Shown here piece by piece: positions 18,194-34,159 of a stretch of DNA of 34,159 nt (positions are counted from its first letter, which is position 1; the number at the start of each line of letters is the position of its first letter). Under the pieces are notes generated by a model. It ran no database searches, was not told where the DNA came from, and saw only the letters and a list, made by a program, of their open reading frames with translations. Both the position numbers and the translations under genes were made by a program. The DNA is from Clostridia bacterium (GTDB taxonomy: Bacteria; Bacillota; Clostridia; Peptostreptococcales; JAAYPU01): positions 1-34,159 of the forward strand of contig JADQBM010000087.1 in assembly GCA_016278615.1 (NCBI GenBank), given 5' to 3'.

Positions 18194-18454
18194 ATTATAC
18201 ACTCGAATATATAGGGATATTGATAAAAAAGTATGTTTTAAAATTATGTTATTACTGTCAATTATAAAAAGAAATAAAACATTATCATTATTGGCATGAT
18301 CTGCTAAAAGTGATATATATGGAAGCTTAACTCACATACTCTTGTGATTTGTTTTGAGATTATGACATAAACAGTTGAGTAATTGAGTGATAAAGAGTAT
18401 AATAACAAGTAGATTGATAAGCAAATTTAGATACGCTTAAAGTGAGGGATTGCA
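18194..18454. other. Non-coding junction between transfer operon and defence island
   Basis: A very AT-rich 261-base gap. It holds the BREX-side promoter (18375-18403) near its right end. I see no coding frame, terminator, tRNA remnant or convincing attachment repeat. It may mark the insertion boundary of the defence island. Confidence 0.5.
18375..18403 (+). promoter_or_regulatory. Promoter of the regulator-BREX operon
   Basis: TTGAGT (18375-18380) and a perfect TATAAT (18398-18403) are 17 bases apart, a good vegetative promoter. The start point would be near 18410, about 45 bases before the regulator start codon, and could drive the whole BREX-Qat run. Confidence 0.72.
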
Positions 18455-18667
18455 ATGAAAATAAGCTATAAAAAGCTCTGGTTTAAATTGGTTGAGCTAG
18501 ATATGAAAAAAAGTGAACTTAGAAAACTTACAGGACTATCAGCAGGGACAATAACAAGGCTCAATAAAAATGAGCCAGTTTCTATTACAGTCTTGCTTTC
18601 AATTTGTGAGGCACTGAATTGCGATATAGGAGATATTTGTTCTGCAATTCCAGAAGATGAATCCTGA
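18455..18667 (+). CDS. Small Cro/C1-type (XRE) regulator at the head of the BREX operon
   Basis: A 70-residue single-domain DNA-binding protein. It contains a five-helix Cro/C1 fold with KSELRKLTGLSAGTITRLNK (about 19-38) as the helix-turn-helix and a conserved C-terminal LLSICEALNCDIGDI segment (about 48-62). Start ATG 18455 has an agtgaggg site. It is 51 bases before brxA on the same strand, behind a good promoter, so it probably autoregulates and controls BREX expression. Many BREX loci carry a WYL-domain regulator (BrxR) at this place; this one is unrelated and much smaller. Confidence 0.88.
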   Translation: MKISYKKLWFKLVELDMKKSELRKLTGLSAGTITRLNKNEPVSITVLLSICEALNCDIGDICSAIPEDES

Positions 18668-18718
18668 TTATTGGACAGAAGATAAAATATAATAAAGATT
18701 ACGATAGGAGTGAACTGG

Positions 18719-19324
18719 ATGGATGTAACGTTCCCTTATAACGGAAGCTTAACTGCTGAACAGTTCCTTTTTTATGAAATAAGGATTGTGTCAAAACTGT
18801 TTTTAGAAAAATTAACAGTTGAAGAGATTATTGAAATAGTAAAAAAGGATAATTTGTTTCAATATCCAACAGAAAGACAAATTTCAAGGCTGACTAGAGC
18901 TTGCTATAAAAGATTGGTAGCTTTAGAAAATGAAAAGTTGGTGAGAGAATTGGCAAATGCACCTACAGATATTGCTAAGCAAATAAATTTGTATGCAATG
19001 ATGCGATATAATCGACTGGTTTGGGAATTTATGATTAATGTGATTGGTGAAAAATTTAGATTACAAGACTATTCTTTAACCAGAAAAGATGTCAACTTAT
19101 TTTTCATCAGATTACAAGAGCAAAACGACGATGTTGCATCATGGAGTGAAAAAACAATTGCTAAAATTAAACAAGTATTGATAAAAGTTCTTGTTGATAC
19201 AGAGTTTTTAGATCATATTAAATCAGAAGTTCTAAATCCTGTTTTTCTATTTGAAGAACTTGAGACAGAGATTAAAGAAAATAATGATTTTGAAGCATTT
19301 CAAGCTTTTAATTGCTTTAAATAG
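18719..19324 (+). CDS. brxA: BREX protein BrxA (DUF1819 family)
   Basis: A 201-residue protein. ATG 18719 is 8 bases after ataggag; the GTG at 18710 overlaps that site. BrxA family members are small all-helical DNA-binding proteins; features here are the N-terminal FPYNGSLTAEQFLFYEIR segment, a YPTERQISRLTRACYKRL helix, and RYNRLVWEFMINVIGEKF in the centre. It is the first gene of the canonical type 1 order and is followed 9 bases later by brxB. The identification depends on both family resemblance and the full downstream gene set. Confidence 0.88.
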   Translation: MDVTFPYNGSLTAEQFLFYEIRIVSKLFLEKLTVEEIIEIVKKDNLFQYPTERQISRLTRACYKRLVALENEKLVRELANAPTDIAKQINLYAMMRYNRLVWEFMINVIGEKFRLQDYSLTRKDVNLFFIRLQEQNDDVASWSEKTIAKIKQVLIKVLVDTEFLDHIKSEVLNPVFLFEELETEIKENNDFEAFQAFNCFK

Positions 19325-19333
19325 GAGATGGAT

Positions 19334-19891
19334 ATGGAAAACATAAAAAAAGAGTTAGATAAAATAAAAGATAGAATATCAGATTCCAATTTTCTTACGA
19401 ATAAAGGATTAAGCAATGAAGTGGGCATTCATGTTTTTTGTTATTCGCCTAAAAACGAATTAATTGTAAGAGAATATATTGAGATGTTAAAGAATGAAAA
19501 AAATACGCCTTATAAAATCATTGAGCAAGATCTTTATGAAATTTTTCTAGAATTACTTGAAGATAAAAGAGTGTTAAATACTGTAGAGTCACTTGAAGAA
19601 AAAAAAGGAAAAGATTATTTGCTTACACAATTGCAAAAAATAGCTACCCCAGAAGCATTGATAGAAAAAATGAAATATGAACCACATGAATATGGTGATG
19701 TTCTCTTTCTCACGGGAATAGGAAAAATATATCCCTTTATGAGATCTCATAAAATGTTAGATAGTATGCAGCATATATTTTCAGATATTCCAATAGTAAT
19801 GTTTTACCCTGGAGAATTTAATGGTCGTGGATTAGAACTTTTTAATAAATTTTTTGATGGCAATTATTATAGAGCATTCAGCTTGCTATAA
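19334..19891 (+). CDS. brxB: BREX protein BrxB (DUF1788 family)
   Basis: A 185-residue cytoplasmic protein. I prefer the ATG at 19334 because the taggag site is well spaced for it; one at 19328 abuts the site. Diagnostic BrxB features are the N-terminal helix, the central region KYEPHEYGDVLFLTGIGKIYPFMRSH (about 115-140, cited here only by its key GIGKIYPF motif) and a C-terminal IPIVMFYPGEF...YRAFSLL end. BrxB is an essential BREX component, proposed to act as an adaptor among BrxC, PglX and PglZ. Spacing to brxC is 15 bases. Confidence 0.88.
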   Translation: MENIKKELDKIKDRISDSNFLTNKGLSNEVGIHVFCYSPKNELIVREYIEMLKNEKNTPYKIIEQDLYEIFLELLEDKRVLNTVESLEEKKGKDYLLTQLQKIATPEALIEKMKYEPHEYGDVLFLTGIGKIYPFMRSHKMLDSMQHIFSDIPIVMFYPGEFNGRGLELFNKFFDGNYYRAFSLL

Positions 19892-19906
19892 CGGAGGGAT
19901 TTGTGG

Positions 19907-22900
19907 ATGAAGATTCAAAATATGTTTAAAAACGATATTAATCGTGATATTAATGGGGTTATTAAAGTAGCTCAAGATGACGAAAAAAGCCTACATCAGG
20001 AATTGAGTGAATATATTATTACAAAAGAACTTAGACGTCACTTTGCTACTTTTTTTGACAATTATACAAAAGCAATAGATCAACCGACGGACAAAATGGG
20101 AGTTTGGATTTCTGGCTTTTTTGGAAGTGGTAAGTCACACTTCTTAAAAATGCTATCATACTTACTTACAAATAAAAAAGTGAGTAATCAAAATGCTGTA
20201 GATTACTTTGAGAATAAATTCGATGACTCAATGATGTACGCTATGATCAAGAAATCAGTTTCTGTTCCCACTGAGTCAATACTGTTTAACATAGATATTG
20301 AGGGTCCTATAAATAAAGATAAAACAGCAGTACTTAGAGTCTTTACTAAGGTATTTTATAATCACTGTGGATATTATGGTGAAGATTTAAAAATAGCAAA
20401 ACTTGAACGCTTTATTGATAAACAGGGTAAAACTAATGAATTTAGGGAAGTTTTTGAGCAAATCAATGGTGGAAACTGGCTTGAAACCAGAGATTCCTAT
20501 GCATTTTTTGAAGATGATATTGTAGAGGTTCTTAAAGTTGTGCTCGGAATGAGTGAAACAGCTGCTCGTAATTGGTTTAATAGCGAAGAAAATGGCGATA
20601 TGAGCATTAAACAATTGGTTACAGAAATTAAAGAATATGTAGATAATAAAGGTAAGAATTTTAGATTATTGTTTATGGTCGATGAGGTAGGCCAATACAT
20701 TGGTGATGATGGCGATTTAATGATAAATCTACAATCTATTGTTGAAGAATTGGGCGCAAAATGTAGGGGAAAAGTTTGGGTTATGGTAACAAGTCAAGAA
20801 GCGATTGACTCCATAGTTAAGATTAGCGGAGATGATTTTTCAAAAATTCAAGGAAGGTTTAACACACGCCTTAGTCTTTCTTCATCTTCAGTTGACGAAG
20901 TTATTAAAAAGAGAGTGCTTGCAAAAACAGATGATGCAGAACAATTGCTAGATATGGTCTATGAAAAAGAATATGCGGTTTTGAAAAACTTATTTACATT
21001 CAATAATCCAATATTGGATATTAAGGGTTATTCAAATGGGAGTGAATTTACCTCCACATTTCCATTTGTACCGTATCAATTTATTGTTATTCAAAAAGTT
21101 TTGGCAGAAATAAGGAAGCATGGTAACTCTGGCAAGCACCTTTCTGGTGGAGAACGTTCTATGCTTTCAGGTTTTCAGGAAGCAGCACAAGAATTTCAAT
21201 ATAAAGATGAAAATGCACTGGTTCCTTTTTATAAATTTTATAATACGGTACATACATTCTTAGAAAGTCCTATTCGTAGGGTTATAGATCGTTGTCAAAC
21301 AGCAGCTGATAATAATGATGGAATAGAACAAGAAGATGTAAGCGTACTTAAATTACTTTATTTGGTTCGATATATAGATGATATTAAAGCAAATATTAAT
21401 AATATTGCAATTCTTATGGTAGATGATATTAGGACGGATAAAATAGCATTAAGAGAAAAGATAAAAAATTCATTAGAACGTCTTCTTGTACAAAACTATA
21501 TTGCTAGAAATGGGGATACTTACGCATTTCTTACAGACGAAGAGCAGGATATTGCTATTGATATAAAAAATACTGTAGTAGATAGTTCTACAATTGTTCA
21601 AAGTATTGGGCAAACAATATATAGTGATATTTTTCCAACAAAGAAATACAAGTATAAGAAATATGATTTTGCCTATGATCAATATGTCGATGAAACTTTA
21701 ATTGGCTCAGCAAGCGGTGGAATGAGATTGCGTATAATTACAGTAGCAAGTGATTATTACAATACTTCTGAGCAAAAATTAATCATGGATTCTCAAATAA
21801 ATAATGAAGCCATTGTAATCTTATCAAACGAAGCACCTTATTTTGAGGAATTAGAGCAAGCAATGAAAATTCGAAAATATGTGAAGCAAAGAAATATATC
21901 TCAGTTACCAGAAAGCATACAAGATATTATCAGAAAAAGACAACAGCAAGCACGTAACTTAGAAGATAGAGCTACAAACTATATAGAAAAGGCTATACTA
22001 ACAGCTAAATTTTACATTCATGGAGAAAAAATAGAGATTAAATCTGGAAGTGTAAGGGATATTTTAGATGCGGCTCTTAGGAATCTTGTAGAAAGTGTAT
22101 ACAATAAATTAAATATGGTAAATTCCTTTGTAGATAGTGATGCAGACATCCTACAAATATTAAATAGTAAGAGTCATGAGATTGGGATAATAGGAACTGG
22201 GACAAATAATGAGTATGCACTAAATGAAATTAGCCAGTGGTTAGAATTACAAAGTCAAAAAATGTTACCTACTTCAATGGGAGATGTTCAAAGAAGATAT
22301 GGCGCTATTCCTTATGGGTGGAGAGAAATAGATATTGCTGCAATGATTGCCAATTTAATTGCACAGCAAAAAATATCTATTCGTTATGGCGGAGTATTGA
22401 TATCTAAAGAAGAGCGTAGGTTAGTAGACTATTTACGTAAAAAATCAGAAATAGATAAGGCAAGTGTAACAAGACGTATTGCACCGTCAGAAGATTTGAT
22501 TAGGAAAAGCGTGGATTTTTTAAGAGAATATCTAGGTGCTATGGATATTCCGACTGATGAAGATGGACTGATTTATTATGTGACAGATACATTTACTAAA
22601 AGATTAACACATTACGAAACGCTTATTGAAAGTGAATATAGTCGAGAAAACTATCCTCAAAAAGAAATTGTAGATGAAGCATATAAATTAATGCAAGATA
22701 TTTTGTCGCAACGAAAAGATAATGTTGCACTTCTAAATCGTATGATACAAAAGCAAGATGCATTATTTGATTCTGCTGAAGTTATGGAAGAGATTGAAAC
22801 ATTTTTTAAAACGCAAAAAGTGATATTTGATTCTGCAAAGAAATTGTTAAAAGATATTCGAACTGAACGGGATTATTATGCAACAGAGATGGAAGCATCT

Positions 22901-23434
22901 AGTGCAATTAGAGAAATTGCATCAATACTTACTTCACCAAAACCATACCCTCGAATCAAAGAATTATCTGAATTAATGCAAAAATTTAAAATGGTTAGAA
23001 ATACACTCTTAGAGTTAAAAAGAGAGGAAGTTAATGGAATAATTATTCAATGCATGGGAGATATTCACACTCTAGCTGGTTGGAGCATGCGAGCAGAAGA
23101 ACATGTTCGAAAATCCGATGATTACTTTAAAAAGAAAAAACAGGAAGTTATAGAATCGGATTCACTTACAGTTTTAGATGCAATGATTACTCAAATGTTG
23201 AACTATAAAGATACAATATGCAAACATATAGAATTTACGGTAAATGATGTTCCTGCTATTGATAAAGGCACCAACGTAGATAGAAAGCCTCAAAAAGTTG
23301 TAACTGTAAGAAGATATGATATTTGTCCAGTAAAACGGATACAAAATAAAGAAGATATTGATAAATATGTGGAAACAATAAGAGAAAAATTATACGAGGC
23401 TTTAGAAGAAAATGATGGAATTCAAATAAACTAG
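19907..23434 (+). CDS. brxC: BREX P-loop ATPase BrxC
   Basis: A 1175-residue ATPase of normal length for BrxC. ATG 19907 has a cggaggg site 8 bases upstream; a TTG at 19901 is too close to the site. Walker A is GFFGSGKS (70-77), inside the characteristic VWISGFFGSGKSHFLK region, and Walker B is LLFMVDEVGQ with D259 and E260. A long helical C-terminal half, including charged segments near 770-1100, suits oligomerisation. BrxC is required for BREX defence and probably couples ATP hydrolysis to complex assembly or target recognition; its precise reaction is not settled. The reading frame is intact. Confidence 0.93.
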   Translation: MKIQNMFKNDINRDINGVIKVAQDDEKSLHQELSEYIITKELRRHFATFFDNYTKAIDQPTDKMGVWISGFFGSGKSHFLKMLSYLLTNKKVSNQNAVDYFENKFDDSMMYAMIKKSVSVPTESILFNIDIEGPINKDKTAVLRVFTKVFYNHCGYYGEDLKIAKLERFIDKQGKTNEFREVFEQINGGNWLETRDSYAFFEDDIVEVLKVVLGMSETAARNWFNSEENGDMSIKQLVTEIKEYVDNKGKNFRLLFMVDEVGQYIGDDGDLMINLQSIVEELGAKCRGKVWVMVTSQEAIDSIVKISGDDFSKIQGRFNTRLSLSSSSVDEVIKKRVLAKTDDAEQLLDMVYEKEYAVLKNLFTFNNPILDIKGYSNGSEFTSTFPFVPYQFIVIQKVLAEIRKHGNSGKHLSGGERSMLSGFQEAAQEFQYKDENALVPFYKFYNTVHTFLESPIRRVIDRCQTAADNNDGIEQEDVSVLKLLYLVRYIDDIKANINNIAILMVDDIRTDKIALREKIKNSLERLLVQNYIARNGDTYAFLTDEEQDIAIDIKNTVVDSSTIVQSIGQTIYSDIFPTKKYKYKKYDFAYDQYVDETLIGSASGGMRLRIITVASDYYNTSEQKLIMDSQINNEAIVILSNEAPYFEELEQAMKIRKYVKQRNISQLPESIQDIIRKRQQQARNLEDRATNYIEKAILTAKFYIHGEKIEIKSGSVRDILDAALRNLVESVYNKLNMVNSFVDSDADILQILNSKSHEIGIIGTGTNNEYALNEISQWLELQSQKMLPTSMGDVQRRYGAIPYGWREIDIAAMIANLIAQQKISIRYGGVLISKEERRLVDYLRKKSEIDKASVTRRIAPSEDLIRKSVDFLREYLGAMDIPTDEDGLIYYVTDTFTKRLTHYETLIESEYSRENYPQKEIVDEAYKLMQDILSQRKDNVALLNRMIQKQDALFDSAEVMEEIETFFKTQKVIFDSAKKLLKDIRTERDYYATEMEASSAIREIASILTSPKPYPRIKELSELMQKFKMVRNTLLELKREEVNGIIIQCMGDIHTLAGWSMRAEEHVRKSDDYFKKKKQEVIESDSLTVLDAMITQMLNYKDTICKHIEFTVNDVPAIDKGTNVDRKPQKVVTVRRYDICPVKRIQNKEDIDKYVETIREKLYEALEENDGIQIN

Positions 23435-23447
23435 GAGGGGTGAGTAA

Positions 23448-26400
23448 ATGAATAAAACAGTGATACAGAAATTTGCAGTTTGGGCAAGAACAGAATTAAT
23501 TGAACAAGTTGCTCAAAGGGCATATCAGTATGGAATAGATGAAGATGGTTACGGTGATAAAGATGTCATTGCGATTAATGGACGCATTTTAGCTTCAGAT
23601 GAATTAAAACAAAGAAAAGAATTGATTGATAAAATTGATAAAAAAGGATATAAGCAAGTTATGGAGGAGGTTGCTTATACTTGGTTTAATCGTTTTATAG
23701 CACTTCGATTTATGGAAGTAAATAACTACTTGCCTTCACATATTCGAATTTTTTCAGATTCAAATGGTGAATTTAAGCCTGAAATCTTAAAAGAAGCACT
23801 CAGAGTTGAATTAGGAGGAATAGATAAAGCGAAGGTAGAAACTTATATTGAAAATAATCAAACAGAAGATTTATATAGGCATTTACTGTTGACACAATGT
23901 AATGCTTTAAATAAAGTTTTGCCAGATACATTTGAAGAAATGGGTGGCTATACGGGACTTTTATTGCCAAATAATATTTTAAAAAGTGAAAGTGTTATAG
24001 GGCATTTGGTACAAGATATACCAGAAGAAGATTTTAATATTACGGTGGTAAATGAAGCTGGAAAGCCCAATGGACAAGTTGAAATATTAGGTTGGTTGTA
24101 TCAACATTATATTTCGGAGCCTAAGGATGTTTTGATAAATGCAAAAAAACAGTACAAAAAAGATGATATTCCTTTTGTTACTCAAATATTTACTTCGGAC
24201 TGGATTGTAAAATATATTGTTGACAACTCCCTTGGTCGATACTGGATTGAACGAAATCCAGAAAGTAAATTAAGAGAAAAACTTGAGTTTTTTGTTACCC
24301 CTAAAAATGGTGAATTTGAGTATATAAATGAAAAAATTAATCCAGAAAATATTACTTTTTTTGATCCTTGTATGGGTAGTGGGCATATTTTAATCTATGC
24401 TTTTGATGTTTTTATGGAAATATACAAAGAATGTGGCTATTCAGAAAGGGATGCAGCGCAATCTATAATACAAAACAACTTATTTGGTGTGGATATTGAT
24501 GAAAGAGCTTATCAATATGCATATTTTGCAGTTATGATGAAAGCAAGAAGCTATGACCGAAGATTTCTTACAAGGAATATTGCGCCCAAGTTATCAATCA
24601 TTGAAGAAAGCAATGAAATAAAAAGTCATACATTTGAAGGCATTACCTATGATAAGGACTTAGACAAAATCGGTGAATATCTTTGTGATGTTTTTAAAGA
24701 TGCAAAAGAAATTGGTTCTTTACAAACAGTTGAAAAAGGAGATTATCAAGCTTATTTAGACTATCTTAATAACTGTAAAATGGAAGGACAAATGACTTTT
24801 GACAGTGATGACTGGTGCAAAGATACGTTGCCAACTTTAAAAGCTTTAGCAGCACAGGCTGATATTTTAGCACAGAAGTATACAGTTATTTGTACCAATC
24901 CACCGTATATGCCAAATAGCAAGATGACAGTAGTGCTTAAGTCGTTTATAGAAGAAAAATACAGTTTATGCAAAAGCGATACTTTTTCAGCTTTTATTTA
25001 TAGATGTATGGAATATTGTATCAATATGGGATATGTTGGAATGTTGACACCTTTTGTTTGGATGTTTATTTCGAGTTATGAAGATTTAAGAAAAGAGCTT
25101 CTAAGTAAAGTTACTTTGATTTCTTTGGTACAATTAGAATATAACTCATTCGAAGCGGCGTGTGTACCTGTATGCACATTTGTTTTTGAAAACAATAAAT
25201 GCTTAAAACGTGGTGAATATATTAATTTATCTGAATTCAAAGGGATAGATATTCAAGCACCCAAGACAATTGAAGCTATATACAGTGATGATTGTTCGTA
25301 TAGATTCTCAACATTACAAGAAAAATTTTATAAAATTGAAGGATTTCCAATAGCCTATTGGATTAGTAATAATGTTTTGTCATGTTATGAAAAAGGGATT
25401 TCATTAGGGGAAATTTCTGCACCACGAAAGGGAAACTCTACATCGAATAATGAAAAATTTCTTCGGTTATGGTTTGAAGTAGATAAACTTAAAACAAACT
25501 ATAAGTGTAAAGAAATTATTAGGGAAAATACCCTTGTAAAAAGATGGTTTCCATACAATAAAGGCGGTGGTTATCGGAAATGGTATGGTAACAATGAGTA
25601 TTTGATTGATTGGTATGACGATGCAGTTGAGATTAGAAATATAAAAACGGCTGTAATTGCAAATTATCAGTATTTCATGAAACCTGGATTGACTTGGTCT
25701 ACCGTTTCTAGTTCTAATTTTAGTATACGGTATTTTGAAGAAGGTTTCATTTTTGATAATGGAGGATGTTGTATTTTTGATATTGGCGATAATAGAGAAT
25801 ATATTTTATCATTGCTTAATTCGAAAATTTTCAAGTATATTTTTGGGAGTATAAATCAGACCTTAAATTTCCAATCAGGTGAAGTTGCTAAATTTCCTGT
25901 GATTTTGGAAACTCAATGTATGATAGATGTTATTGCTAAAAAGAACATAATGATTTCAAGAGAAGATTGGGATAGTTTTGAAACTTCTTGGAATTTCTTA
26001 AAGCATCCATTAATAAAAGGTAGTAACATTAGAGAAACATTTGAAATCTGGAAAGAAGAATGTGAAAGCGATTTTAACGAGTTAAAATCCAATGAGGAAG
26101 AATTAAATCGAATCTTTATCGAAATTTATGGACTACAGGATGAATTAACTCCAGAGGTTGAAGATAAAGATATTACATTAAAAACAAATACGGCATATCG
26201 TTACAAACAAAAAAAGAAGAAAAATAGTGAAAATGAATTTGAACCTGAAGAGGAAATTGTTGAAGCTAAAGAAATTAGAGATCAAAGGTTTTTGCATGAC
26301 ACAGTAACGGAATTTATCTCATATGCTATAGGTTGCATGTTTGGAAGATATTCTCTTGATGTAGAAGGCTTAATCTATGCAGGTGGAGAATGGGACGAAA

Positions 26401-27017
26401 CTATGTACAATTCTATTATTCCAGACAAAGATAATATCATTCCGATTTGTGATGATGAGTATTTTGATGATGATATCACAGGTAGGTTTATTGAATTCGT
26501 AAAAACTGTTTATGGTGATAACTCCCTAGAAGAAAATTTAAATTTCATAGCAGATGCATTGGGTGGAAAAGGATCAAGTCGAGAAATTATTAGAAACTAT
26601 TTTATCAATGACTTTTTCAAAGATCACTGCAATATGTATACCTCAAGAGGTGCAGGTAAAAGACCTATTTATTGGTTGTTTGATAGTGGAAAGAAAAATG
26701 GCTTTAAAGCGATTATTTATATGCACCGTTATCAACCTGACTTACTTGCTCGTATGCGTACTGACTATGTCCATGAACAACAAGAACGTTACCGTACAAG
26801 ACTTACTCATATATTAGATGAACTGAATCATGCGCAAGGAGCAGAAAAAGTTAAATTGACAAAAATTCAAAAGAAAATTCAAGAACAAGTTCTAGAAATT
26901 CAAAAATATGAGGAAAAAATACATCATCTTGCAGATAGAAATATTCCTATTGATCTAGATGATGGAGTAAAACATAATTATGAATTATTTGGAGATGTAC
27001 TTGCCAAGATTAAATAA
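23448..27017 (+). CDS. pglX: BREX adenine-specific DNA methyltransferase PglX
   Basis: A 1189-residue N6-adenine DNA methyltransferase that marks host DNA at the BREX motif so that unmarked phage DNA is recognised. The SAM-binding motif I is FFDPCMGSGHIL (D306, G310-G312) and the catalytic motif IV is NPPY (484-487). A long C-terminal portion (about 600-1189), including charged linkers near 915-945 and a final coiled coil near 1120-1170, probably carries target recognition and complex contacts. Start ATG 23448 has an aggaggggtg site 14 bases after the brxC stop. Length and order match type 1 BREX. The recognised DNA motif cannot be read from sequence alone. Confidence 0.94.
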   Translation: MNKTVIQKFAVWARTELIEQVAQRAYQYGIDEDGYGDKDVIAINGRILASDELKQRKELIDKIDKKGYKQVMEEVAYTWFNRFIALRFMEVNNYLPSHIRIFSDSNGEFKPEILKEALRVELGGIDKAKVETYIENNQTEDLYRHLLLTQCNALNKVLPDTFEEMGGYTGLLLPNNILKSESVIGHLVQDIPEEDFNITVVNEAGKPNGQVEILGWLYQHYISEPKDVLINAKKQYKKDDIPFVTQIFTSDWIVKYIVDNSLGRYWIERNPESKLREKLEFFVTPKNGEFEYINEKINPENITFFDPCMGSGHILIYAFDVFMEIYKECGYSERDAAQSIIQNNLFGVDIDERAYQYAYFAVMMKARSYDRRFLTRNIAPKLSIIEESNEIKSHTFEGITYDKDLDKIGEYLCDVFKDAKEIGSLQTVEKGDYQAYLDYLNNCKMEGQMTFDSDDWCKDTLPTLKALAAQADILAQKYTVICTNPPYMPNSKMTVVLKSFIEEKYSLCKSDTFSAFIYRCMEYCINMGYVGMLTPFVWMFISSYEDLRKELLSKVTLISLVQLEYNSFEAACVPVCTFVFENNKCLKRGEYINLSEFKGIDIQAPKTIEAIYSDDCSYRFSTLQEKFYKIEGFPIAYWISNNVLSCYEKGISLGEISAPRKGNSTSNNEKFLRLWFEVDKLKTNYKCKEIIRENTLVKRWFPYNKGGGYRKWYGNNEYLIDWYDDAVEIRNIKTAVIANYQYFMKPGLTWSTVSSSNFSIRYFEEGFIFDNGGCCIFDIGDNREYILSLLNSKIFKYIFGSINQTLNFQSGEVAKFPVILETQCMIDVIAKKNIMISREDWDSFETSWNFLKHPLIKGSNIRETFEIWKEECESDFNELKSNEEELNRIFIEIYGLQDELTPEVEDKDITLKTNTAYRYKQKKKKNSENEFEPEEEIVEAKEIRDQRFLHDTVTEFISYAIGCMFGRYSLDVEGLIYAGGEWDETMYNSIIPDKDNIIPICDDEYFDDDITGRFIEFVKTVYGDNSLEENLNFIADALGGKGSSREIIRNYFINDFFKDHCNMYTSRGAGKRPIYWLFDSGKKNGFKAIIYMHRYQPDLLARMRTDYVHEQQERYRTRLTHILDELNHAQGAEKVKLTKIQKKIQEQVLEIQKYEEKIHHLADRNIPIDLDDGVKHNYELFGDVLAKIK

Positions 27018-27032
27018 AAAGGAGGTCAAAAC

Positions 27033-29621
27033 GTGTCAATTGAAAATATACAATATAGTCTTATAGAACGATTTGAAGCTCCTTTGCCTGAATTCTACAA
27101 GAGGAGAATAATATTTTGGCAAGATGAGGAGAGGGAATTTGAGTCATTAGTAGATGATTTGAAATTAGACAATGTTAGCATAAAAAAGATAACAGGCGTG
27201 AATAATTTTGCTATAAAAAAATTACTAACGGTTGATGATCTGTGTAACAATTATTTAATTTATAGTCCAGTTTCTCATAAAGATATTAGAGATAATTGGT
27301 TGTTAGATATTGAGTTGTACAGTGAAGAATTCCGAGCTGATTTTATCTCAATGCAAATGGAGGAGCTTAACATCCAGCCTACCTCAGCAATGAGAAAAAC
27401 CGTAAAAATGTATTCGAAATTTTTAGACAACAAAGAGCGTAGATTAAAACTTAGAAAAATAGGTAGAGAATATCAAACACCGTTACAATTGCATATTGAT
27501 ATAATGTCGGTACTTTGTGGACTTAATGGCGGATCTGCTCAAGATGTATTGATTGCAGTTTTATCAAATGGATTTGATAAAGAAGAAAATAGTGCGTTAA
27601 TAAACATAAGGAAATTCGGGAATATAGATGCATTTTGGCAATTGGTTCAAAAATATACAGGGTACATTGAAGAAGAGGGCAAGCCTTTAGAGGAGTTTGC
27701 TTCACATCTGTTACTCACTGCAATTTCACAAACTATGAAAAGTAATGTTTTTAAAGGTTTAGAACGATTTATTTCAGAGTCATGTAAAGCGTATTGTTAC
27801 AGTTTAGTTCATGATTGGCAAATGAGTGACAATAATCATGTACTGCTATCTATTTGTCATACAGTAGAAAATGAACTACAATTGATGAATAGGTTTGAAA
27901 AGCCTGAAATTGAGACGCTTTTAACTAGTGATGTTTTTCCTTGTATAAACGAAACTATTCTCAAGCGTTTTTTTGAAGAAATAAATGAGCGTGTTATTAA
28001 AACGGAGCTAATATTTAAGACTGTCGAGAACAGGCGTACATCTGCATGGTATAATTTGACATCAGATTATTTTGATTGTTTGTTTTATATAGCCAAAATG
28101 CAAGATTTTTATCAGCAATATACAAAAGGTTTTCATATTGTTGAACCTAAAAACATTTGGAAACTATATGTTGATAATTGTTATTTAATGGATAGTTATT
28201 ATAGACATTTTCATTATGCATTTGAAAATACATTGAAAGACTCAAATCCAGATTTGGAAGACTTGTTGAAACATAACCTTGAATATGTTGAAGGATTATA
28301 TCAAAATTGGTTCTTAAAGGAACTAACAAGTTCATGGACAAATGCAATCGTTGAGGATTACAATTCAATAGGTTATGTGTCTGAAATAAGTAAACAAAGA
28401 GAATTTTATAACAAATATGTTGAGCCTATTTCAAGTAAAAATGGAAGAATATACGTCATCATTTCGGATGCACTTAGATATGAAATTGCTACAGAACTAT
28501 CGGAAAATTTAAGTAGAACACTAAAGGGCAAGACTACGTTAGATGCAATGCAAGCAACATTTCCATCTATAACGAAATTTGGGATGGCATCATTACTTCC
28601 AAACAAAAACATTTCAGTTACTGAAGAAATGGCTGCTTTGGTAGATGGAAATCCAACTGATAGTACAATAAAAAGAAATAAGGTGTTAACAGACAGAAAT
28701 AAAGATAGTGTTGCAATTCAATATAAAGATTTATTGAAAATGAAGCAGTCAGAACGTCATGAAGCTACGAATGGTAAAGATATAGTGTATATATATCATA
28801 ATGCTATAGATGCTATTGGAGACAAAGCTCCTACGGAAAACAAAGTTTTTGAGGCTTGCGAAACAGCTATGCAAGAAATTTTTAATACTGTAAGAATCAT
28901 TGTAAAAGAGCTGAGCGGAACCAATATCATAGTAACCGCAGATCACGGATTCTTATACACCTACAATCCGCTTGAAGAAAGTCAAAAGATAAGCAAATCA
29001 AATTTTTTAGGAGAAATATATGAGGTTGGAAGGCGTTATGCATTGACAGATGTGAATACTTCAGCTGAATATTTAATGCCTATAGCACTTGAAAGAGAAA
29101 TTGATGGAATTTCTTTAAAAGGCTATGCTCCTCAAGATACTATAAGAATCAAAATGTCAGGTGGCGGTGAGAATTTTGTGCATGGTGGAATTTCGCTTCA
29201 AGAAATGGTGGTTCCAGTAATTATATATAAACATATGAGAAGTGCATCAAAAAAATATGTAAAGGTAAAGAATGTCGAATTATCCTTATTAAGTGAGAGT
29301 AGAAAAGTCTCAAATCTTATTTTTTCATTAGATTTTTATCAAAAAAACCCTATCAGTGAAAAAGTTCAACCATGCACTTATAATATATACATGACCGATG
29401 AAGAAGGAATTCCTGTAAGTGACAGACAAATTATTATTGCGGATCGGACGGGTAATAATGCTTCTGAACGTGTTTTTAGAACTAAATTCAACTTAAAGTC
29501 AGTTACTTTTGACAAAAATAAAATTTATAGGCTTGTCATTTCAAACGATATTGATGTACCAGAGGAAATAGAATTCCATATAGACATCGCATTCGCAGAT
29601 GACTTTGGCTTTGATTTATAG
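27033..29621 (+). CDS. pglZ: BREX alkaline-phosphatase-fold protein PglZ
   Basis: An 862-residue BREX core protein. It begins with GTG 27033 after a textbook aaaggaggt site, 15 bases from pglX. The N-terminal helical part (1-460) includes a WQDEEREFE segment (about 29-37) typical of PglZ. The PglZ domain follows: VIISDALRYEIA (metal-site D479), the FPSITKFGMASLLP segment (about 510-523) and the TADHGFLY motif with D637 and H638. These metal-binding residues of the alkaline phosphatase superfamily are retained, consistent with a nuclease or phosphodiesterase-like activity reported for family members. The C-terminal 140 residues are beta-rich. Confidence 0.94.
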   Translation: MSIENIQYSLIERFEAPLPEFYKRRIIFWQDEEREFESLVDDLKLDNVSIKKITGVNNFAIKKLLTVDDLCNNYLIYSPVSHKDIRDNWLLDIELYSEEFRADFISMQMEELNIQPTSAMRKTVKMYSKFLDNKERRLKLRKIGREYQTPLQLHIDIMSVLCGLNGGSAQDVLIAVLSNGFDKEENSALINIRKFGNIDAFWQLVQKYTGYIEEEGKPLEEFASHLLLTAISQTMKSNVFKGLERFISESCKAYCYSLVHDWQMSDNNHVLLSICHTVENELQLMNRFEKPEIETLLTSDVFPCINETILKRFFEEINERVIKTELIFKTVENRRTSAWYNLTSDYFDCLFYIAKMQDFYQQYTKGFHIVEPKNIWKLYVDNCYLMDSYYRHFHYAFENTLKDSNPDLEDLLKHNLEYVEGLYQNWFLKELTSSWTNAIVEDYNSIGYVSEISKQREFYNKYVEPISSKNGRIYVIISDALRYEIATELSENLSRTLKGKTTLDAMQATFPSITKFGMASLLPNKNISVTEEMAALVDGNPTDSTIKRNKVLTDRNKDSVAIQYKDLLKMKQSERHEATNGKDIVYIYHNAIDAIGDKAPTENKVFEACETAMQEIFNTVRIIVKELSGTNIIVTADHGFLYTYNPLEESQKISKSNFLGEIYEVGRRYALTDVNTSAEYLMPIALEREIDGISLKGYAPQDTIRIKMSGGGENFVHGGISLQEMVVPVIIYKHMRSASKKYVKVKNVELSLLSESRKVSNLIFSLDFYQKNPISEKVQPCTYNIYMTDEEGIPVSDRQIIIADRTGNNASERVFRTKFNLKSVTFDKNKIYRLVISNDIDVPEEIEFHIDIAFADDFGFDL

Positions 29622-29633
29622 GAGGTCAGACCA

Positions 29634-31703
29634 ATGGGTGAATATATGAATGACAACGAAATAATAAATTTAAATGAAGTATTGTACAAAAAACTTAGAG
29701 CAAATTTTGATGGAAAGATTGTTCGTAAAGATTTGACGAAATCTATCAAGGAAGGGGCAAATGTACCTGTATATGTATTAGAGTTTTTATTAGGTCAATA
29801 TTGTAGTTCAGATGACCCTGAAATTGTCGAAGAAGGCGTAAAAAATGTAAAAAAAATACTTGCAGATAATTTTGTCCGTCCTGATGAAGCTCAAAAAGTA
29901 TTGTCTATTCTACGTGAAAGAGGTAGCTATACTGTAATTGATCGTATTACGGCAAAGCTTAACATTAAACAAGATCGATATGAAGCTGAGTTTTCAAATT
30001 TGGGAGTAAAAGAAATACTTCTTGCTCCTGAGTACGTGTCTAAGTACGATAGATTACTTTGTGGGGGTATTTGGTGTATTGTTCAACTTGAATATGAGTT
30101 TTTGGAAGAAGATAGGAGAGCAAACCCGATTCGTGTAAGAAAACTGACTCCAATACAGATGCCGCATATTGAATTGGAAGAAATTAAAGAGGCAAGAAAG
30201 GAATTTACAAAAGATGAATGGCTTAATATTCTACTTCGTTCTACAGGAATGGAAGCAGATAAGTTTACAGAACGTGAAAAATGGCTTCTCCTTGCTCGTA
30301 TGATTCCGCTTGTTGAAAACAATTTTAATCTTTGCGAACTCGGTCCACGGAGTACAGGTAAATCGCATATTTACAAAGAGATATCGCCTAATAGCATACT
30401 TATATCTGGTGGCCAAACTACAGTAGCCAATTTGTTTTACAATATGGCAAGTAAAACAGTAGGTCTTGTTGGAATGTGGGATTGTGTAGCTTTTGATGAA
30501 GTCGCAGGTATTACCTTTAAAGACAAAGACGGGATTCAGATTATGAAAGATTACATGGCATCAGGTTCATTCGCTCGTGGAAAAGAAGAAAAGGCAGCAA
30601 GCGCTTCTATGGTTTTTGTAGGTAATGTCAACCAGAGCGTAGAGGTGCTTTTAAAAACGTCACACTTATTTGAACCATTTCCAGAAGCTATGGCTTACGA
30701 TACAGCTTTTCTTGATCGTATGCATTGTTATGTACCAGGGTGGGAAATTCCTAAATACAGACCAGATTTCTTTACAAACGAATATGGCTTTATTACAGAT
30801 TATCTTTCAGAATTTATGCGTGAAATGCGTAAAGAACAGTTTAGTGATATAAGTGATAAATATTTTATATTTGGTTCTAATTTGAATCAGCGTGATGTCA
30901 TTGCAGTCAGAAAAATGATATCAGGTTTTGTAAAGCTTCTATATCCTAATGGAGAATATAAAAAAGAAGAAATTGCTGAAATTATAACATTATCACTTGA
31001 GTTAAGACGGCGTGTGAAAGAACAACTTAAAAAAATTGGTGGTATGGAATTTTATGATGTGAATTTCTCCTACATAGATAATGAGACTTTCGAAGAACAT
31101 TATGTGTCAGTTCCGGAGCAAGGTGGAGGCAAGTTAATTCCAGAAGGCATTAGTAACCCAGGGCATGCGTATACCATATCAAGAGGAAAAACAGGCATGA
31201 TAGGTGTGTATCGATTGGAAACACAGGTCTTACCGGGTAATGGAAAATTTGAACGCACAGGACTCGGCTCGGATAGAGATGCAAAAGAGGCCACGAATAC
31301 AGCATTTAACTATTTGAAGGCTAATGGGCATTCGATTAGTAATTCAATTAGCACAACAACAAAAGATTATATTGTTAATTACCAAGATTTAAATGGAATT
31401 GGAATCACCAAATATTTAACATTACCAACATTGATTGCAATCACATCGGCAGCACTTAATAAGCCGACATTAAGCAGTCTTGTTGTCTTAGGTGATATCA
31501 GCATCAGTGGAACAATCTTAAAAGTAGATGAATTAGCTAGTGTTTTACAAGTGTGCTTAGATAGTGGAGCAAAGAAGGTATTAATACCTATTACATCTGC
31601 AACTGAAATAGGTACAGTTCCAGCAGACTTGATGGGAGCATTTAGTTTAATATTCTATTCAACGCCGCAGGAAGCGGTGTTTAAAGCGTTAGGAGTAGAG
31701 TAG
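29634..31703 (+). CDS. brxL: BREX AAA+ Lon-like protein BrxL
   Basis: A 689-residue protein completing type 1 BREX. ATG 29634 follows a taggaggtc site by 8 bases. The N-terminal helical and winged region (1-200) precedes an AAA+ core: Walker A GPRSTGKS (237-244) and Walker B AFDE with D288 and E289. The C-terminal 120 residues have the Lon-protease fold, seen in LVVLGDISISGTILKV and AKKVLIP. A canonical DGPSAG serine motif is not apparent, so proteolytic activity is doubtful. Published BrxL proteins form DNA-binding ring assemblies needed for phage defence. The gene ends 12 bases before qatA. Confidence 0.93.
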   Translation: MGEYMNDNEIINLNEVLYKKLRANFDGKIVRKDLTKSIKEGANVPVYVLEFLLGQYCSSDDPEIVEEGVKNVKKILADNFVRPDEAQKVLSILRERGSYTVIDRITAKLNIKQDRYEAEFSNLGVKEILLAPEYVSKYDRLLCGGIWCIVQLEYEFLEEDRRANPIRVRKLTPIQMPHIELEEIKEARKEFTKDEWLNILLRSTGMEADKFTEREKWLLLARMIPLVENNFNLCELGPRSTGKSHIYKEISPNSILISGGQTTVANLFYNMASKTVGLVGMWDCVAFDEVAGITFKDKDGIQIMKDYMASGSFARGKEEKAASASMVFVGNVNQSVEVLLKTSHLFEPFPEAMAYDTAFLDRMHCYVPGWEIPKYRPDFFTNEYGFITDYLSEFMREMRKEQFSDISDKYFIFGSNLNQRDVIAVRKMISGFVKLLYPNGEYKKEEIAEIITLSLELRRRVKEQLKKIGGMEFYDVNFSYIDNETFEEHYVSVPEQGGGKLIPEGISNPGHAYTISRGKTGMIGVYRLETQVLPGNGKFERTGLGSDRDAKEATNTAFNYLKANGHSISNSISTTTKDYIVNYQDLNGIGITKYLTLPTLIAITSAALNKPTLSSLVVLGDISISGTILKVDELASVLQVCLDSGAKKVLIPITSATEIGTVPADLMGAFSLIFYSTPQEAVFKALGVE

Positions 31704-31715
31704 AGGGGGACAACC

Positions 31716-33653
31716 ATGATTTTATCTGATAATGAAACGAAAGTTGATATGCTTAATAATTTAGCAATAGCGAAAACAGTGGTAGAACTCATTAATGAAA
31801 GCAAAGAAAGACCTATATCCATAGGAGTTCATGGTGATTGGGGTGCGGGAAAATCAAGTATTCTAGAAATGGTTGAAGACGAATTTTCATCGAACACAGA
31901 TATTGAGTGTATAAAATTTAATGGATGGAAACATCAAGGATTTGAAGATGCAAAAATTGCATTGATGAGTGCTATCGTATCAACATTAATAGAAAAGCGT
32001 AAGCTATCTGAAATATGTGCAGATAAGGTTAAAAAGGTATGGAAGAATATTAATTGGTTAAGTGTTGCAAAAACAGCTGGTAGTTTTGCTTTTTCTTCAA
32101 CCACAGGGATACCACCAATTGGGTTAATCACTAATGCTTTCGACACATTAAAGAGTAATATTTCAGATGCAGATAAAGTTGGAAATACTGTAGATTCAAT
32201 AGGTTCTTTTTTATCAGATTCTAAAGTGTTTGAAGACATTTCAATGTCTAAAGAATTTTCAGAGTTTCAAGAATCATTCAATGATCTTCTTGAAGCATCG
32301 GCTGTAAAAAAATTAGTTGTGCTTATTGATGATTTAGATAGATGTTTGCCAGAAGTAACAGTAGAAACTTTAGAAGCGGTTAGATTATTTGTGTTTTCAA
32401 ATTCAACAGCTTTTGTAATTGCAGCAGATGAAACTATGATCGAATACGCAGTTAAGAAGCATTTTCCCGACTTGACGGACTCAAACAATAAAAATCTGGG
32501 GGCAGAATTTTCAAAAAGATATCTAGAAAAATTGATACAAGTTCCATTTAGATTACCTGTTTTAGGAGAAGTAGAGGCAGAAATGTATATAAAATTACTC
32601 CTTATAGGGTCAAAACTAGAAGAAGACTCAAATGAATTTGATTCCCTCTTAAATATATCTATTGAAAAGATGAAAAAGCCATGGAAAAATCAAGGACTGA
32701 CGATTACCGAAATTCATGAAGCTCTTGGAGAAAAGTATAGTAGTATAACTAATGAAGTTACAATATCAACACAAATTAGTTCTATATTGGCACGCAACAC
32801 ACATGGTAATCCAAGGAAAATAAAAAGGTTTATCAATATGCTACTATTAAGAGAAAAAATTGCTAATGCTCGTGGTTATGGAGATGAAGTCTATCTCCCA
32901 ATTTTGGCAAAGTTAATGTTAGCAGAGTATTTTTTTGATGAATTTTATAAAGATATAGCTTCACAAACAGATGATTTAGGACATTGTCATAATATCAAGA
33001 TTTTAGAAAATTATGTTTTGAATGTTGAGAAGCACGAAATCAAAAGTGAAGTATCAGAAGATGATTCTGATACAAAAATGAAAAAAGACAAAAATGAAAT
33101 AACTCAAATTATACAGATAGCTAATTCCAAAATCATTGAATGGAATAAAGATGATAACATAAAAAAATGGGCAATGACTGAGCCGAGGCTTGGCGATATA
33201 GATTTAAGACCCTATTTCTTTGCCTGTAAGGAAAGAGAGGATTATTTCTTTAATCAAATTAAATCTGAAGTTTTACGTAACATAATAGATAAACTAATGA
33301 GTACATCAATGAATATCGCAAGTATAAGAAGTGAAGTAAAGAATCTATCCGACGAAGATGCAAGAATTGTTTTTGATAGTCTGTCTGCAAAAATTATGTC
33401 ACAAAGTAATATTGTTAATAAGCCATATGGCGTCGAAGGCATCACATGTTTAGTGTCACTTTATCCAAAATTAGAGCCTGACCTCATGAGCCTAATTGAA
33501 ATGTTTGACACAAAAACTGTAGGAGTCTGGATATGCAGTGGATGGAACGAATGTATTAAGACAGGGGAAGCTAAATCAAGACTTACGGGTTATTTTGAGA
33601 AATTAAAAGTAGATGGAACTGCAATTGTGAAAGCTACGATAAAGACAATATAA
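31716..33653 (+). CDS. qatA: KAP-family P-loop ATPase QatA
   Basis: A 645-residue ATPase, first gene of a Qat anti-phage system. ATG 31716 has an agaggggga site. Walker A is GDWGAGKSS (40-48) in the IGVHGDWGAGKS context typical of KAP NTPases, and Walker B is VVLIDDLDRC (D205-D208), another KAP signature. Hydrophobic stretches near 105-135 (AKTAGSFAFS to GIPPIGLIT) may be the membrane-insertion segment common in KAP proteins between the two motifs. A GNPRKIKRFINMLL motif (about 366-379) matches the KAP C-terminal lid. The assignment to QatA rather than a stand-alone KAP protein rests on the QatB-like start immediately downstream. The Qat mechanism is not established. Confidence 0.88.
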   Translation: MILSDNETKVDMLNNLAIAKTVVELINESKERPISIGVHGDWGAGKSSILEMVEDEFSSNTDIECIKFNGWKHQGFEDAKIALMSAIVSTLIEKRKLSEICADKVKKVWKNINWLSVAKTAGSFAFSSTTGIPPIGLITNAFDTLKSNISDADKVGNTVDSIGSFLSDSKVFEDISMSKEFSEFQESFNDLLEASAVKKLVVLIDDLDRCLPEVTVETLEAVRLFVFSNSTAFVIAADETMIEYAVKKHFPDLTDSNNKNLGAEFSKRYLEKLIQVPFRLPVLGEVEAEMYIKLLLIGSKLEEDSNEFDSLLNISIEKMKKPWKNQGLTITEIHEALGEKYSSITNEVTISTQISSILARNTHGNPRKIKRFINMLLLREKIANARGYGDEVYLPILAKLMLAEYFFDEFYKDIASQTDDLGHCHNIKILENYVLNVEKHEIKSEVSEDDSDTKMKKDKNEITQIIQIANSKIIEWNKDDNIKKWAMTEPRLGDIDLRPYFFACKEREDYFFNQIKSEVLRNIIDKLMSTSMNIASIRSEVKNLSDEDARIVFDSLSAKIMSQSNIVNKPYGVEGITCLVSLYPKLEPDLMSLIEMFDTKTVGVWICSGWNECIKTGEAKSRLTGYFEKLKVDGTAIVKATIKTI

Positions 33654-33667
33654 CGGAGGTACAGAGA

Positions 33668-34159
33668 ATGGGAACTTCAACCAGTAATGGAGGACAAAAC
33701 GGCAAAACTCCCTTAGTGCCGTCGTGGTTAGATGATGAAAATAATTCGTCAGATAATAATATACCTATACCACCTCAAGCCGATGGAGAAAGATTTAGAA
33801 TACCAAGAAGTAATTTTACACGATATGTAAATGAGGGTGGAAGAAGTACATATAATTTACATAAAGCAACATCACAATATGTTAGACAGTCTCTTGGCGG
33901 AGCAAAAAATGCAACTACCCGATTGGGTGCTGCAAGAAGCAGTACTGCAAGATTAGTTTCCATTTTCAATAGTATATCTAATAATGGTGTTGCCGAAACA
34001 AGCCGTAAATATGGACTTGGTGAATTGATAGGCAAAAGTGCTAGAGATGTATTCTTACATATTATGGATTTTGTATGTCCGGATGGTGGGTCGACAAATG
34101 AGGGTATTGCAAGAAATTCATATATTGAAACATTGATGATTTTGTCAGATTTAGAAAAT
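33668..34159 (+). CDS. qatB: QatB, 5' part only (runs off the window)
   Basis: The first 164 codons of an open frame that continues past the window edge. ATG 33668 follows an acggaggt site, 14 bases after qatA. The N-terminal motif MGTSTSNGGQNGKTPLVPSW (1-20) is the hallmark of QatB proteins, with a low-complexity Asn/Pro-rich linker (24-37) and a helical middle region containing YVRQSLGGAKNATTRLGAAR (71-90). QatB has no known catalytic motif. In characterised systems it is followed by qatC (QueC-like) and qatD (TatD-like DNase), expected just beyond this window. The part seen is intact. Confidence 0.9.
   Translation, partial: MGTSTSNGGQNGKTPLVPSWLDDENNSSDNNIPIPPQADGERFRIPRSNFTRYVNEGGRSTYNLHKATSQYVRQSLGGAKNATTRLGAARSSTARLVSIFNSISNNGVAETSRKYGLGELIGKSARDVFLHIMDFVCPDGGSTNEGIARNSYIETLMILSDLEN

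Follow-up and report, generated by a model that had tools for sequence, protein, structure and literature searches.

Six genes of a type I BREX system and the first gene of a Qat system follow one another at this locus on the same strand, which raises the question of whether the two systems form a single operon or are simply neighbours. We addressed this question in the window, i.e., the whole stretch of DNA analysed, which is the entire contig C97 (34,159 bases) of a draft genome of 3.5 Mb that comprises 128 contigs and is 98.97% complete.

The PADLOC and Pfam results revealed a complete type I BREX system of six genes at 18710-31703; the canonical gene set of this type is listed in the available passages of PMC8565348. 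The genes, all on the plus strand, are brxA (18710-19324; PADLOC BrxA 8.8e-66, Pfam BrxA 4.4e-56), brxB (19328-19891; PADLOC 5.5e-58, Pfam 5.8e-39), brxC (19901-23434; PADLOC E=0, three BREX_BrxC domains and a Walker A pattern at residue 72), pglX of the adenine methyltransferase family (23448-27017; PADLOC E=0, Pfam Eco57I 1.7e-21, NPPY at residue 484), pglZ (27033-29621; PADLOC 4.2e-297, Pfam PglZ 7e-53) and brxL (29634-31703; PADLOC E=0, BrxL_ATPase 8e-146, NCBIfam TIGR02653 1079.4 bits with a cut-off of 628, and a Walker A pattern). For the Walker, NPPY and HxH motifs and for promoters, the scans used commonly cited consensus patterns.

Behind brxL lies qatA, a KAP-family NTPase gene (31716-33653, plus strand; PADLOC 3e-225, Pfam KAP_NTPase 7.5e-48, NCBIfam NF041923 793.7 bits with a cut-off of 600) with both Walker A and Walker B patterns, followed by qatB (33668-34159, plus strand; PADLOC QatB 4.3e-52), whose N-terminal 164 amino acids in the window alone pass the NCBIfam NF041924 cut-off (104.2 versus 100 bits). 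As the earlier note had stated, the window stops inside qatB, where C97 ends. The remainder of qatB, and then qatC and qatD, were located in the same genome on the reverse strand of contig C99. Except at one position, the final 33 bases of C97 (34127-34159) are identical to the first 33 of reversed C99; none of the other overlap lengths between 15 and 119 gives comparable agreement, and C97 holds a match to the overlap nowhere else. The two parts of QatB cover complementary portions of the profile (C97, 53-187 plus 1-29; C99, about 180-292), and searching the whole genome for QatB gave matches at these two contig ends only. From the overlap of the ends we infer that C97 and C99 are adjacent. 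After the join, qatC (PADLOC 1.1e-153; NCBIfam 483.8 bits, cut-off 280) and qatD (PADLOC 2.8e-78; NCBIfam 264.3 bits, cut-off 230) lie on the same strand as BREX, and qatD ends at 36546 in the extended coordinates. The earlier note had made its reading depend on qatC and qatD downstream, and both are there; read across the joined contigs, the order qatA-qatB-qatC-qatD holds, with all four genes above the NCBIfam cut-offs. Because C99 supplies the rest of qatB as well as qatC and qatD, the Qat system is complete. The contig break in qatB coincides with the single-base difference between the overlapping ends, which suggests either strain mixture or an assembly error.

The predicted proteins indicate that the Qat module is apparently intact. 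QatB begins with MGTS, QatC carries the SGGMDS, TRT and CGYCVPC motifs, QatD contains HxH, and residues 25-442 of QatC align with the solved QatC 9vlk (4e-83). With the QatB and QatC motif definitions taken from passages of PMC13279940, we scanned 30 other Qat loci, i.e., all of the 32 available except L019 and L074; the QatC motifs were present in 30 of 30, in ORFs that had been chosen by two of the three QatC motifs, and QatB started with MGTS in 26 and with MGAS or MGSS in 2, with no start detected by the script in the remaining 2. According to the available passages of PMC13279940, the Pseudomonas aeruginosa system requires the QatB N-terminus and the QatC catalytic residues, QatB and QatC alone are enough against certain phages, and the range of phages depends in part on QatA and QatD. 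The gene set, the gene order, the QatB MGTS and the QatC motifs are the same here as in the qatABCD of P. aeruginosa and E. coli described in those passages, where the motif residues are given as either required or conserved, but in the present genome Qat is appended to BREX and, unlike the systems described there, probably has no promoter of its own.

The earlier note had placed qatA 12 bases past brxL with a good ribosome binding site (RBS), and this proved correct: the 12 intervening bases AGGGGGACAACC (31704-31715, plus strand) contain the RBS AGGGGG, which begins just past the brxL stop codon, and the qatA start codon is the ATG at 31716. This gap is the same as that between pglZ and brxL, and the nine junctions from brxA to qatD, all on the same strand, measure 3, 9, 13, 15, 12, 12 (brxL-qatA), 14, 3 and -4 bases, a span of -4 to 15. 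A purine-rich RBS is readable ahead of qatA, qatB, qatC and qatD. Third-position GC is 0.20-0.25 in the BREX genes and 0.20-0.24 in the Qat genes, and is higher from mcrB onward (0.27-0.33). Because the gaps, the RBSs and the third-position GC point the same way together, one unit of about 18 kb is the best prediction, and BREX and Qat are most likely a single transcription unit.

No terminator-like site was found at the brxL-qatA junction in our scan, but this result is uninformative because the same scan detects a site of this kind behind just 3 of 25 related brxL genes, and we dropped it as operon evidence. The final codons of brxL can form a weak hairpin (z -1.83), and 9 of 200 shuffled sequences fold equally well. 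An attenuator at this position was rejected, as the hairpin is not accompanied by a T run and the brxL end of the closest relative (L025) does not fold into the same hairpin.

At 18375-18403 on the plus strand, where the earlier note had located the promoter, TTGAGT-N17-TATAAT is present (10 of 12 matches), but such promoter-like matches are no commoner than in shuffled sequence (81 found versus a mean of 81.9, sd 10.8), and we dropped match counts as evidence. The earlier proposal of a joint BREX-Qat operon stood in its gene calls, its spacing and the completeness of Qat, with one operon as the most economical reading of the nine junctions, but co-expression from the site at 18375-18403 is putative, as promoter matches of this kind do not exceed shuffles. 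The site ends 51 bases ahead of a gene for a small helix-turn-helix regulator (18455-18667, plus strand, 70 aa), which in turn ends 42 bases ahead of brxA and sits between the two. The regulator is VanU-like (NCBIfam NF000090 VanU, 6e-26, 90.5 bits, below the cut-off of 150), 'XRE-type' being a label given in this analysis; it is absent from the earlier note. If the site at 18375-18403 is real, the regulator gene would be the first of the unit and a natural candidate for the controller of both BREX and Qat.

The earlier note had also raised the question of how often BREX and Qat are fused, and the pairing did not recur in our surveys. Using tblastn with the BREX proteins of the window, we found a BREX match beside Qat in none of the 18 other QatA-bearing loci. 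These loci (L013-L021 and L057-L065) are all those returned by the order, GTDB-contig, class and phylum surveys, where L015 stands for G136 and L057/L058 and L062/L063 look like near-duplicates; the sequence upstream of qatA amounts to at least 8 kb in 13 of them, 0.4-2.1 kb in L014, L019, L021 and L061, and none in L065. Likewise, a Qat match was found in the flank of none of 26 related brxL loci (65-81% identical by tblastn; 25 from the class survey and one from the family survey), the flank being at least 7.9 kb in 20 and 2 bases to 2.9 kb in six, with L049 counted together with its extension L050. The class survey returned 39 BrxL-matching places besides that of the window, 14 of which were weaker, shorter or second matches and were left out of the comparison, and the family survey (three genomes, BrxL only) returned two relatives, of which the one with 29% identity was left out. 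Annotated Qat regions gave the same picture, with a BREX gene in 0 of 14 over the stretch displayed (10 plasmid regions, whose gene table is incomplete, and 4 from E. coli); these regions were hand-picked, the former among the matches listed of 128 QatC-matching plasmid records and the latter from 19 E. coli genomes with a match.

Searches with the joined BrxL-QatA query were also negative: no place in the 802 matching plasmid records covers 80% of the query, a line that a strongly diverged QatA could miss, and none of the eight matching phage records covers both BrxL and QatA. No relative was found among viral contigs. QatA matched 4 of 393 genomes in the order and 5 of 398 in the phylum, and the joined query gave any match in 40 of 391 genomes in the class, the source genome included each time; the class survey scored only two candidates per genome and may miss QatA. 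The GTDB contigs yielded 8 Qat loci out of 31 pattern matches, and 473 plasmid records matched QatA. The surveys are partial, and BREX types unlike that of the window could be missed throughout. Because the pairing is not conserved, comparison lends the operon no support. In a separate observation, the QatA of L014, a Bacteroidales MAG (JAAYSY010000308.1), is 63% identical to that of the source genome, which belongs to the order of Fusibacter; this reflects either transfer or a mis-binned contig.

Other genes take up the corresponding positions elsewhere. In 25 brxL loci, the next ORF of at least 80 codons is on the same strand in 21, within 40 bases in 5 and within 15 bases in 3; the five within 40 bases comprise two with defence-like cargo and three with genes of unassigned identity. 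PADLOC gave a match for eight of ten proteins downstream of brxL: a CBASS cyclase and effector 62 bases after brxL in L028 (with a Cap15 domain in Pfam), AbiGi followed by a SEFIR gene after 33 bases in L049, from a genome of the same family, an OLD/GajA-like ATPase fragment after 20 bases in L046 (a weak match), Cas9 after 422 and 369 bases in L029 and L033, respectively, and the candidate system PDC-S11 after 96 bases in L035; the downstream proteins of L031 and L044 had no PADLOC match. The nearest genes after brxL in L026 and L027 had no Pfam match. Their products (134 and 239 aa) are alike, with SSKCPEPFNT in common, and the genes lie 14 and 8 bases after brxL. In four plasmid records of the Lactobacillus group, the joined-query match continues past brxL into the next gene, which is annotated as DUF262 in three. 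On the Qat side, the upstream neighbour overlaps qatA by 4 bases in Delftia, a DUF3883 gene precedes qatA by 24 bases in Sulfuricurvum, short ORFs precede it by 19-22 bases in L061 and L064, and in two E. coli strains qatA follows a SIR2 and ATP-binding protein pair after 124-125 bases. Because other genes, some of them for defence, closely trail brxL or precede qatA elsewhere, modular stacking is the likeliest history of the pairing.

Further defence genes surround the pair. On contig C99, a McrB-like gene (L009 9157-11619, minus strand; NCBIfam McrB match below the cut-off) begins 73 bases after qatD and is accompanied by an McrC gene (L009 7853-9142, minus strand; Pfam McrBC 3e-88). No terminator-like site was found by the scan between qatD and the McrB-like gene, and the transcription unit may extend into mcrBC. 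Between McrBC and Wadjet lie three overlapping genes (L009 4340-7629, minus strand) for a WYL regulator, an M78/IrrE-like protein (318 aa) and an ADP-ribosylglycohydrolase with DUF6508, a trio that is possibly an undescribed defence module. For Wadjet, JetD and JetA were identified by PADLOC, and jetB and jetC were named from position only. Towards the far end of C99 (L010 2947-14389) are a SMODS nucleotidyltransferase with an S-4TM effector (CBASS), a helicase, AbiEi/AbiEii and a 593-aa serine recombinase, and the window upstream of BREX encodes a T2SSE ATPase, a TraG-like ATPase and an NlpC/P60 protein. The BREX-Qat pair is part of a multi-system island, which is probably carried by a mobile element.

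We consider it likely that a type I BREX operon has been extended at its 3' end by a complete qatABCD, and that xre-brxA-brxB-brxC-pglX-pglZ-brxL-qatA-qatB-qatC-qatD (about 18 kb across the contig join) shares one transcript that starts ahead of the regulator gene. The shared transcript, the control by the regulator and the function are what we infer from gene content, order, strand, spacing, RBSs and motifs. From what is generally known of BREX, it would methylate a motif in the DNA of its host and act against phage DNA that lacks this methylation. Qat would function independently, with QatC, an ATP-using relative of QueC, acting on QatB, probably at the MGTS N-terminus, and with QatA and QatD affecting the phage range, as reported for the P. 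aeruginosa system. Co-transcription would then provide shared dosage and shared transfer rather than a new machine.

Separate expression of two mere neighbours, with a promoter for qatABCD inside brxL and the short gap as a by-product of insertion, appears rather unlikely. In seven close relatives, 41 to 596 bases separate qatA from the closest upstream ORF of either strand, from which it is evident that Qat can stand apart, and plus-strand promoter-like matches occur within brxL at 30204, 30370 and 30844; however, the junction repeats the spacing of pglZ-brxL exactly, and no such match lies between 30872 and 31715, though this type of scan performs no better than chance here. A misassembly that joined BREX to Qat is hardly credible, since the junction is 2.4 kb away from the contig end and falls precisely between two intact genes, with similar composition on either side, even though the draft is fragmented and breaks within qatB with a one-base difference between the ends.

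Two readings go further than joint transcription. In one, BREX and Qat would form a dedicated composite and cooperate, e.g., with Qat as a back-up when phages inhibit BREX, a role suggested for the PARIS-like modules of BREX loci. The single predicted unit, the one regulator and the motifs of both systems are compatible with this, as is the recruitment of back-up effectors, PARIS-like ones included, into BREX loci in the passages of PMC12839542; yet the pairing was found in none of the 18 other Qat and 26 other brxL loci, other genes occupy the same place, and the sufficiency of QatB and QatC against some phages in the available account of the published system (PMC13279940) also speaks against it, so we judge such cooperation very doubtful. 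It is improbable that the locus is a larger three-system defence operon, with the small helix-turn-helix regulator shared by BREX and Qat, with mcrBC on the same transcript and with Qat protecting as a back-up once BREX is blocked by a phage protein.

BREX loci with additional defence genes have been described before. In the passages available from Picton et al. (2021; PMC8565348), the type I BREX of pEFER carries a second defence gene, brxU, in line with the core genes and gives complementary protection. The present locus likewise has a second defence component in line with the BREX core genes, but brxU, the gene of a type IV enzyme, is flanked there by brxC and pglX, whereas here the complete four-gene Qat follows brxL. 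Rakesh and Krishnan (2026; PMC12839542) describe, in the passages available, how BREX operons recruit additional effectors, either within them or alongside, a general pattern that the Qat case shares; their effectors are nucleases and OLD-ATPase modules, whereas here it is Qat, and words starting with Qat, QueC, KAP or McrBC are absent from the main text of that paper. Vibrio europaeus strains with both BREX and Qat in the genome are mentioned in passages of PMC13249269. No BREX-Qat operon is described in the passages of that paper or of PMC10121019, PMC12421847, PMC12824646 and PMC10952713, and no description of the pairing was found in the portions of the literature searched.

The pairing is new but of a kind already known, and nothing so far points beyond stacking; it resembles the usual accumulation of defence genes in a defence island. 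The comparisons hint that additional genes, including some for defence, gather on the 3' side of brxL. An operon with two whole defence systems lends itself naturally to testing whether co-expressed defences are additive or cooperative.
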